This document shows, piece after piece, positions 10,903 to 17,699 of a stretch of 64,000 nt of DNA. Source of the DNA: Paenibacillus amylolyticus (GTDB lineage Bacteria > Bacillota > Bacilli > Paenibacillales > Paenibacillaceae); NCBI RefSeq assembly GCF_029689945.1, contig NZ_CP121451.1, positions 4,216,001-4,280,000 of the forward strand, in the 5' to 3' direction. The position numbers and the translations under genes were made by a program. The notes beneath the pieces are model-generated. The model was not told the DNA's origin. It was given only the letters and a program-made list of their open reading frames with translations, and did not search any database. Each line of letters begins with the position of its first letter. Positions within the stretch are counted from its first letter, which is position 1.

Positions 10903-11014
10903 CCTAATCGGCAATAGGTTCTTTTCCTTGGAAGGGACAAGAATTTGTTTCGATAAATAAAAAAAGCCGCTAAAATGGCGACTTTAATGGGAATATGTTC
11001 TTGTTCCTCGACAC
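10903..11014 (+). repeat. Dispersed repeat family A, full-length copy
   Basis: The most complete copy: GGCAATAGGTTCTTTTCC, an inverted GGGACAAGAA, CGATAAATAAAAAAAGCCGC with the TAAAATGGCGAC hairpin, a spacer TTTAATGGGAATAT, and GTTCTTGTTCCTCGACA. The two TTCTTGTCC-like ends are partly inverted around the hairpin, as in a small non-autonomous element. Confidence 0.65.
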
Positions 11015-11099: not shown

Positions 11100-11941
11100 T
11101 TAGTTGTCATTGTATACAGCCTCCCTTTTTCGCAATACCACTACGATATCTGTCTGAGGTACAAATAAATTATAATTCGTTACATGCACTTGTCTTGTTT
11201 CGGTTACGGATTCTATCTTTAATTCAGGAGGAAGACAGCGCTCTATGTGAGTAATTAATGTTTCTTTGGTAAATCTCCAAATTACACCATCAATCGAAGA
11301 GTTCGCCATATAACCACGGTCTGTTACAGAACCTGAAAGAGACTTGAGAACAACCGGATCCGCAATAATGATAGATCCACCGTCACGTAAGAGTCTGCAG
11401 CTCTCGATGAAGGCTTTTTTGTGATAGCGAATGTGATGAAAGCTTCGTGCAAACAAAATCATATCGCAGCTATGATCAGGTAAAGAAGTTGGCTTATCAA
11501 TGAAAGCATGAATATAAGAATTAAACCTTCCCCACTTCTTTCCTAGTTTTAGAGCATTTAAATTCGGATCCATGTTGAGAAAACGAACGTCCTTCTGCTT
11601 GCGAAGATACTTGTTCAATAAACCTGTACCGCAGCCCACCTGAAGAACATCACCCTTTAAAGGGGGAGAACTTTGTAGACATTACGAGGAATAGGGAAAT
11701 TTTGAACGTACATGGCCAGTTCGTAGAAAATCGGATAACGCTCTTGCAATCGAACCAATTTACTGGTGTAGAAAGGTTTCCGCTTTTTGTGACGTTTAAA
11801 GTCCCATTTGTTCAAATAGTAGACAGGGGTTAACAGCAAGAACAGAATAATAAAGACACTCTGGACGCTATAAATTCCAAGTTTACTAGGACGATCATTG
11901 GAGTTATGAGACATCATTTGTTTAAAAGTATTCAAAAGCAT
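11100..11941 (-). pseudogene. Class I SAM-dependent methyltransferase with N-terminal membrane helix, frameshifted
   Basis: ATG at 11941 after GAGAGGGGAG. Residues 1-45 hold one membrane helix (VFIILFLLLTPVYYL), then a basic linker and a segment ending NFPIPRNVYKVLP. The frame then breaks in a C5 run at about 11661 and continues DVLQVGCGTGLLNKYL, with GCGTG as SAM motif I, FLNMDPNLNALKLG as the acidic loop, and SCDMILFARSFHHI and GGSIIIADPVV as the later motifs. One extra C would restore about 281 residues. It is on the same strand and downstream of the lasso-type precursor, after that gene's terminator; any link is speculative. Confidence 0.75.
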
Positions 11942-12289
11942 CACTCCCCTCTCACAACGCTATAAATGGTGTAGAACCTGTTCTAACATAACAAACGAAT
12001 CCAATTGAATGACTTACGAAGCGAAGTGAATCTTCTGATCATGAACAATTTAATCGTATTTAGAGAAGAGTACTTTTTTGACTCTTTCTCCCCGCCCATT
12101 TAAGCGGACAAAAGAAGAGCCGTTTACAATGATGCATCACTATATTTTGTTGAAATCGCTTATGTATAGAAATTATTTTTGCGTGGAGGCCTCAACTGAA
12201 CAATGGTTGTCGAGCGGCGTAATGAATTTCGCAATGTATTCGAAGAAATGTTACATCAACAGGAGGCGGATACACCTCATCTGGCATCG

Positions 12290-12310
12290 AAAAAGCCGCC
12301 TACAGGCGAC
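12290..12310 (-). terminator. Terminator of the lasso-precursor gene
   Basis: On the minus strand GTCGCC, loop TGTA, GGCGGC (one G-T pair) is followed by TTTTT. It starts about 22 bases after the precursor stop codon, so the precursor appears to be a single-gene transcript. The segment 11945-12289 shows no convincing gene on either strand. Confidence 0.65.
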
Positions 12311-12332
12311 CTTTTGAGCAAGAATACGATTT

Positions 12333-12479
12333 TCAACTTGAGGACGCTGGATTATATAAGTCTGCATCATGTTCGGAGATCCAATCAATTTGCTTGTATC
12401 CACGGCCAGCCATCGTTTGCTGCCGCACATCCAGAACCTCTAATTTCGGTGCCTGCCAAGGCGTTTTTTTCGTTTCCAG
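12333..12479 (-). CDS. Paeninodin-family lasso peptide precursor (orphan)
   Basis: A 48-codon frame beginning CTG GAA ACG AAA AAA, nine bases after AAAGGAGGAG; no ATG, GTG or TTG exists in frame back to a stop at 12528. The leader carries TPWQAPKLEVLDV and ends QTM, matching the paeninodin-type leader (W-x-x-P-x-LEVLDV, Thr at position -2). The predicted 25-residue core starts AGRGYKQID, so Ala1 can close onto Asp9, as in paeninodin (AGPGTSTPD), and it ends in Ser, the residue PadeK phosphorylates in that system. The tail is WISEHDADLYNP then ASSS. No B1, B2, C or kinase genes are in the window. The leader has one extra Gln (VRQQTM) relative to what I recall of the family. Recognition is by motif, without alignment. 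Confidence 0.75.
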   Translation of the reverse strand: METKKTPWQAPKLEVLDVRQQTMAGRGYKQIDWISEHDADLYNPASSS

Positions 12480-12555
12480 CGGTCGTCTCCTCCTTTCTAC
12501 AAAACTGGAACCAAAATGCGAGCACCCTTATATGACTTGCGCAATACAATTTTCG

Positions 12556-12574
12556 AAGATACATTATGTATCTT
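12556..12574. promoter_or_regulatory. Perfect palindrome upstream of the lasso precursor
   Basis: AAGATACAT-T-ATGTATCTT (9-bp arms, one central base) lies about 77 bases before the precursor start codon, in its promoter region. It is a good candidate operator for the single-gene transcript. The rest of 12480-12694 shows no gene. Confidence 0.5.
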
Positions 12575-12694
12575 TACGGGAATCATAAGACACAATACGT
12601 ATCTAAGTAAACAAATATTTCATCCCTTTCCTTCTATAAATATCTGCAAAATTCAATCCGATTGCTTTCATCCTTACTAATAGAAATAGATATA

Positions 12695-17126: not shown

Positions 17127-17163
17127 CATTGGCAATAGGAACAAGTTCTTGTCCCTCGACAAT
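17127..17163 (+). repeat. Dispersed repeat family A copy
   Basis: GGCAATAGGAACAAGTTCTT followed by GTCCCTCGACAA; the core matches the family consensus exactly. Confidence 0.6.
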
Positions 17164-17660: not shown

Positions 17661-17699
17661 TCTAATCGGTAATCGGACTATGTTCTTGTCCCTCGACAA
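17661..17699 (+). repeat. Dispersed repeat family A copy
   Basis: TCTAATCGGTAATCGGACTA followed by TGTTCTTGTCCCTCGACAA, nearly identical over 30 bases to the first half of the copy at 1488-1561. It abuts the stop codon of the gene at 17703. The rest of 17458-17660 shows no supported gene. Confidence 0.65.

Follow-up and report, generated by a model that had tools for sequence, protein, structure and literature searches.

A 48-codon gene on the minus strand of the window (the whole 64,000-nucleotide stretch analysed here, lying at C1:4216001-4280000 in a genome of 6.83 Mb that is split over three contigs and has a completeness of 95.84%) is a genuine paeninodin-family lasso precursor gene, hereafter A2. 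With a probability that we put at roughly 0.6, A2 serves as a second precursor that would be processed in trans by the lasso cluster located 1.6 Mb away, and co-regulated with that cluster. Its features suggest a spare, plug-in version of the cluster peptide.

A Paeninodin-Family Precursor Gene

The features of A2 and of its transcription unit are the following (basis in brackets).

12333..12479, minus strand: A2, 48-codon paeninodin-type lasso precursor (translation, NF033524 match, relatives)
12477-12479, minus strand: first codon of A2, CTG (sequence)
12411..12479, minus strand: leader of 23 residues carrying the WxxP RRE motif, LEVLDV and a Thr at -2 (translation; 15-locus alignment)
12336..12410, minus strand: core, 25 residues, with Ala1, Asp9 and C-terminal Ser (translation)
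12333-12335, minus strand: stop codon, TGA (sequence)
12290..12315, minus strand: terminator-like hairpin GGTCGCC/GGCGGC with a T run (by eye)
12489..12496, minus strand: Shine-Dalgarno sequence AAAGGAGG, 9 bases ahead of the CTG (by eye; 15-locus alignment)
12558..12572, no strand: putative operator O2, perfect palindrome GATACATTATGTATC, directly 3' of the -10 (pattern search)
12582..12587, minus strand: -10-like TATGAT (by eye and alignment)
12589..12603, no strand: putative operator O1, reading GATACGTATTGTGTC on the minus strand with one mismatch, placed in the spacer between -35 and -10 (pattern search, alignment)
12606..12611, minus strand: -35-like TTTACT, 18 bp ahead of the -10 (by eye and alignment)
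12275..12630, minus strand: A2 unit common to unlinked relatives (alignment, BLAST)

The initial annotation had described a 48-codon minus-strand frame with a W-x-x-P-x-LEVLDV leader, Thr at -2 and a core starting with AGRGYKQID, and the translation agrees. The A2 protein consists of the leader LETKKTPWQAPKLEVLDVRQQTM, whose motif reads W-QA-P-K-LEVLDV, followed by the core AGRGYKQIDWISEHDADLYNPASSS; the putative cleavage point between them (...QQTM|AG) was placed by alignment and makes Thr the penultimate leader residue. The proposed paeninodin-type affiliation was borne out by profile search, in which A2 scores 53.6 bits (E = 1.3e-14) against NCBIfam NF033524, the paeninodin family, whose curated cut-off is 27 bits; the same model recovers A2 at 53 bits from the whole genome. 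Pfam gives no match to the A2 protein. A degenerate DNA pattern for LEVLDV has a single match in the 64,000-nt window and none in 100 shuffles. Ala1 and Asp9 supply the small residue at core position 1 and the Asp or Glu at position 8 or 9, and the core terminates in SSS, the last Ser matching the position targeted by PadeK. B1, B2 and C do not adjoin A2, their adjacency being a property of the usual paeninodin locus and not of the HMM family. The ribosome site, upstream palindrome and terminator-like hairpin reported around the frame are present by eye and recur in relatives.

From the upstream stop to the leader, no in-frame ATG, GTG or TTG is available to A2, and a longer antisense frame (12203-12535, plus strand) overlaps the gene. 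Together with its shortness, these traits are what a chance frame would display, a reading that deserves practically no credence, as it is already refuted by the E-value of the NF033524 match and by the recurrence of A2 with its operators at 15 loci.

The core had also been thought to be new. Our search of the open-licence full-text literature found no publication on it, but the sequence is already in databases, where a protein with the same core belongs to a cluster of 12 members, and three relatives (G052, G029 and G069) carry an identical core. A protein search with A2 returned four relatives, one of which is labelled hypothetical protein by a source.

A Single Lasso Machinery in the Genome

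The statement that no maturation genes lie near A2 is true of the window but does not extend to the genome: the genome-wide search recommended in the initial annotation locates B1, B2 and the cyclase elsewhere, all together at C1:5.84 Mb. The genome is thus not devoid of maturation genes, and one lasso machinery was found, 1.6 Mb from A2. Searching the whole genome with NF033524 yields three places, namely the cluster precursor (C1:5845935, 63.4 bits), A2 and a third precursor-like gene, A3. The lasso operon encodes a sulfotransferase, the cyclase, the precursor, a kinase-like protein, B1, B2, a nucleotidyltransferase-like protein and an ABC transporter. B1 (lasso_PqqD_Bac) and B2 both score above cut-off, and the best NCBIfam match of the cyclase is lass_lactam_cya at 373 bits, under the model cut-off of 525. 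Genome-wide, there is one Transglut_core3/B2 match and one PqqD/B1 match. Five places are asparagine-synthase-like, and the one whose neighbours were read, at C1:5846162, adjoins B1/B2. The cluster precursor consists of the leader MNTMQNEKKEWQAPALEVLEVNQTM and the core AGTGYRQIDWVTVHDADLYDPTS. It has W-QAP-x-LEVL-[DE]-V in common with the A2 leader, and 16 of the first 23 core residues are identical in the two proteins.

In this assembly, the reading frame of the cluster kinase gene is broken and spans 131 aa, compared with 255-347 aa in 10/10 relatives checked. Since frame breaks affect four of the 10 lasso-region genes examined here, compared with 0/10 in both G052 and G002, sequencing error has to be seriously considered alongside a true loss of the kinase, and the breaks across the region may be indel errors of this assembly.

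The sulfotransferase-family gene heads the operon (L010:11994-13262, minus strand, L010 being the lasso region). A relative of it also precedes the cyclase in G006, G030, G013 and G065, and none was found in the G023 cluster, where it was looked for. The lasso operons of G067, G032, G068 and G003 (L084, L090, L096 and L099) include a tandem second precursor with the core AG[TA]GYKHIDWVTVHDADLYGTS.

A2 Copies in Related Genomes

Our comparison set comprised 75 genomes of the genus (numbered G..), 72 of which contain an NF033524 match. Besides the cluster copies, unlinked precursors occur at 14 loci in 13 genomes, which with A2 makes 15 loci in 14 of the 75 genomes. In seven of these (this genome, G052, G037, G009, G034, G068 and G069), both precursors lie on the same contig at a distance of 1.0-1.7 Mb; in the other seven, A2 and the cluster precursor are on different contigs. 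Outside the genus, the family-level NF033524 search gave at least eight matches in G191, at least five in G225 and at least four in G251, and among the matches listed, some are far apart or on different contigs.

Leader and core are readable in 13 of the 15 A2 copies, which start with ATG (nine copies), CTG (this strain and G052), ATA (G032) or ATT (G034). The G032 copy has also lost the Pro of WxxP, the G068 copy has an internal stop and, in the alignment of the 15 loci, a damaged Shine-Dalgarno sequence, and one G004 copy is devoid of the start region and the Trp. The cores follow the consensus AGxG[YF][RK]QIDW, with Asp9 in 15/15 copies and Ala1 in 14/15, one of the G004 copies having Gly1 instead. 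All 15 copies share the tail EHDA-x-[LI]Y, and the C-terminal Ser is found at 14 of the 15 loci, G005 having Phe.

G037, G034 and one G004 copy out of two share the A2 unit despite flanks that otherwise differ; in G009 and G010, roughly the coding part alone aligns with it by BLAST. Most relatives have TATAAT at the -10-like position. The terminator-like hairpin, G+C-rich with A/T runs, recurs at the 15 loci, in diverged form in G009/G010.

We considered reading A2 as a mobile element, since the unit sits in several genomic contexts, in some relatives with copies of a dispersed repeat nearby, and keep these facts as observations only. In the window, this repeat, GGACAAGAACNTGTTCC, occurs at 1507-1552, 10935-11006, 17138-17154 and 17675-17691, with six matches at up to two mismatches for 0.02 expected, and related copies lie near the A2 units of several relatives. 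The methyltransferase-like gene adjoining A2 (11100-11944, minus strand) is split in two frames in this assembly and forms a single frame of 277-307 aa in 8/8 relatives checked.

Evidence for selection on A2 in this strain is weak. Over all pairs of A2 copies, pS is 0.242 and pN 0.105, and dS between A2 and the G009/G010 copies reaches ~2.07 with a dN of 0.23. Pairwise dN/dS values of A2, each computed from few changes, are 0.39 against G029, 0.13 against G069, 0.56-0.69 against G032, G005 and G034, and 0.87-1.93 against G067, G037, G036, G068 and both G004 copies. A2 and G052 differ by two synonymous and no nonsynonymous changes, amounting to 2/141 coding positions compared with 15/216 in the flanks (p = 0.02). 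The coding part is also less diverged than the flanks against G029 (p = 0.036) and G069 (p = 0.0009), but the difference is insignificant against 9 of the 12 copies compared in this test, from which G009 and G010 were excluded.

A Paired Palindrome at the A2 and Cluster Promoters

All 15 A2 loci have a perfect GATAC-N5-GTATC palindrome upstream, and each also has a second palindrome with one mismatch. The two are spaced by 31 bp at 12 loci, this one included (O1 to O2), by 32 bp in G032 and by 30 bp in G009 and G010. By eye, in the aligned units, the upstream palindrome falls between the -35-like and -10-like hexamers. The cluster promoter has the putative operators in common with A2: TTGACA is followed by a perfect palindrome inside a 17-bp spacer and by a -10-like TAGAGT. 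In a close set made of 20 relatives and this genome, the perfect palindrome is found at 21/21 cluster operon heads, and the one-mismatch partner 31 bp further on at 19/21, being degraded in G009 and G010. The A2-like units of these two genomes keep the pair even though their coding parts are separated from A2 by the dS of ~2.07.

In the 75 genomes, the exact 31-bp pair pattern has 68 matches, distributed over 55 cluster heads (3334-3541 bp from the cluster precursor), 12 A2 loci (within 300 bp of the unlinked precursor) and one site upstream of a repressor-like XRE gene in G023. The pattern misses three A2 units through their spacing. It is absent from 19 of the 75 genomes, 16 of which bear a precursor, and from the cluster in 17 of the 72 precursor-bearing genomes; no perfect site is found near the G013 cluster head, and the G023 cluster is differently arranged. 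We considered that the palindrome could be a generic genome repeat and rejected this reading because reversed-pattern controls are lower throughout: 3 for 16 single palindromes in this genome, 190 for 920 in the 75 genomes, and 0 for the 68 pairs.

A Third Precursor-Like Gene

L011:8359-8424 (C1:5424359-5424424), minus strand: A3, third precursor-like gene (NF033524, leader only)

A3 scores 27.1 bits against NF033524 through its leader alone, which is of the lasso type (WxxP, ETM). Its core follows the consensus NGG[EQ]GIWQYVW[DG]GEFWKLE[LM][LM]VS, which ends in Ser and has no acid at positions 7-9. As written, A3 cannot form a standard lasso ring. This type of match occurs in 28 genomes; in the 21 where A3 was read, 17 fit the consensus exactly, G056, G055, G068 and G037 deviate, and a GATAC palindrome lies upstream in 21/21. 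Here, A3 precedes a gene for a CarboxypepD_reg-domain protein.

A Candidate XRE Regulator

The excess of the single palindrome over its reversed control is absent only in G016 and G022 among the 75 genomes. One of the 16 places in this genome is 197 bp upstream of the gene of P0002, a 122-residue XRE protein encoded divergently from a capsule/exopolysaccharide operon (CpsB/CapC and Wzz matches); others are found ahead of a hexapeptide acetyltransferase, a sugar epimerase, an HpaB-like gene and an ABC transporter region. All 75 genomes carry the XRE gene, the three that have no lasso precursor among them. In 30/30 close loci, that of this genome included, a site is found 180-198 bp upstream of the gene; of the 15 further loci, 13 have one within ~250 bp, the exceptions being G016 and G022, neither of which has a lasso precursor. 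G074, likewise devoid of a lasso precursor, does carry the site at its XRE gene. P0002 has an N-terminal HTH domain, its sequence matches PDB entries 7t8i (the ICEBs1 XRE regulator) and 1b0n (SinR), and its score against NF041951 (XRE/RstR-like) is 70.6 bits, under the cut-off of 80; among the matches listed, P0002 exceeds no NCBIfam cut-off. Judging from its position, this conserved XRE protein encoded beside the exopolysaccharide operon is the most likely candidate for a repressor acting at the palindromes. In the smaller genomes checked (G006, G007, G012 and G018), the lasso precursor is 22-26 kb from the XRE gene, in line with the co-localisation of paeninodin and LPP (linear polyphosphorylated peptide) clusters with capsular polysaccharide loci, which is frequent according to PMC13381572.

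Proposed Mechanism and Alternative Explanations

A2 would be transcribed as a single-gene unit, from a promoter of its own to a terminator of its own. Since both promoters bear the same operator pair, A2 is expected to be expressed with the lasso cluster and to track its expression. The layout, with O1 between the -35 and -10 and O2 located 31 bp, or about three turns of the helix, further downstream, is the one expected of a repressor that blocks RNA polymerase, a role that the conserved XRE protein, whose own upstream region bears the operator, could fill. Provided that the CTG is translated sufficiently in this strain, the WxxP leader would be bound by B1, the RRE protein of the distant cluster, B2 would cut after Thr-Met, the cluster cyclase would close the ring from Ala1 to Asp9, and the C-terminal Ser would be a kinase target. 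For the cyclised A2 core, the calculated [M+2H]2+ is 1381.644, or 1421.627 with one phosphate, and for the cluster product 1281.598. Of the fates first contemplated for the gene (orphan, trans-processed precursor or relic), the common promoter architecture of A2 and cluster favours trans processing. Counting against this reading are the non-ATG starts and broken copies, the presence of A2 in only 14/75 genomes, the weak evidence for selection, the broken kinase frame, the clusters that have no exact pair, the occurrence of the single operator ahead of other genes and that of the XRE gene in three genomes with no lasso precursor.

In this strain, a productive copy seems likelier than a relic, though the CTG start keeps the margin small. 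Under the relic explanation, A2 arose when a lasso precursor was duplicated together with its promoter; the copy functioned in trans in an ancestor, and a mutated start has since turned it into a relic here, while the ATG-start copies of relatives may still be working. Such decay would account for the CTG, ATA and ATT starts, the internal stop of G068, the truncated G004 copy, the low frequency across the genus and dN/dS values near or above 1 against six copies. It is harder to reconcile with a promoter, both operators, ribosome site, leader, core and terminator that are all intact by sequence, with the lack of nonsynonymous changes relative to G052, which likewise has a CTG, and with a coding part less diverged than its flanks in three comparisons, though not in the nine others. 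We regard the relic explanation as possible for the CTG copy but somewhat doubtful. Non-ATG starts might also reflect near-cognate selection instead of decay, a question for which four copies are too small a sample. As A2 begins with CTG, unlike the nine ATG-start copies among the 13 readable ones, and as two copies are clearly broken, A2 may be barely expressed or decaying in this strain, and trans working would be the stronger claim for ATG-start relatives.

A very improbable alternative holds that A2 acts mainly as a competitor: by occupying B1, its leader would tune the output of the main lasso peptide, and whatever is made from its own core would be incidental. The leader motif common to both precursors and the single PqqD-type RRE match in the genome agree with it, and, according to Popov et al. 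(2026; PMC13381572), identical leader motifs may bring precursors into competition for the machinery they share. A pure leader decoy would nevertheless have no need of the Asp9, Ala1 and EHDA-x-[LI]Y tail that A2 copies have retained. A second precursor processed in trans is our preferred reading. Beyond A2, we tentatively propose, at clearly less than even odds, that the paeninodins of the genus belong to an exopolysaccharide/cell-surface regulon under one conserved XRE repressor, into which promoter-precursor units such as A2 and A3 plug additional cores. If so, the cluster would supply the enzymes and the scattered units extra cores, and one machinery would yield several co-induced peptides.

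Comparison with Known Systems

A2 resembles paeninodin (PadeA) in its leader motif, Thr at -2, the fit of Ala1 and Asp9 to a nine-residue ring and the C-terminal Ser, and the same genome has a cluster with B1, B2, C, kinase-like, nucleotidyltransferase-like and transporter genes. It differs in standing alone, 1.6 Mb off, with its own copy of the paired-operator promoter and a CTG start. PadeK phosphorylates peptides of the paeninodin family, as summarised in PMC9266682. The RRE-binding leader motif has W in its paeninodin form, as described by Popov et al. (2026; PMC13381572). LPPs, as portrayed there, have a related leader motif and RRE logic but differ by YxxP leaders and clusters with no cyclase, A2 having WxxP and a cyclisable core. 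The Discussion of the same article calls a link of paeninodins to capsule or biofilm tempting but untested. With 67 of the 68 matches of the paired operator at lasso precursor loci, to which it is thus almost exclusive, and the single operator beside the exopolysaccharide operon and XRE gene, a lasso-exopolysaccharide link becomes directly testable.

Searches of the open-licence literature by title and start of abstract found neither unlinked lasso precursors nor a regulator of paeninodin clusters; a related idea is that of unclustered lanthipeptide proteases (PMC8960859). A2 would be overlooked by mining centred on clusters, being far from the enzymes and starting with a CTG outside the usual start codons, which suggests that such mining overlooks precursors.

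As for regulation, P0002 has the same N-terminal HTH as XRE/RstR-like repressors, and its DNA target is deduced from position only. With respect to gene organisation, there is a parallel with the prochlorosins, lanthipeptides in which many precursor genes are unlinked to one shared modifying machinery. A2 is likewise unlinked to one machinery; the difference is that here one or few lasso precursors go with a common operator, in place of many lanthipeptide precursors.
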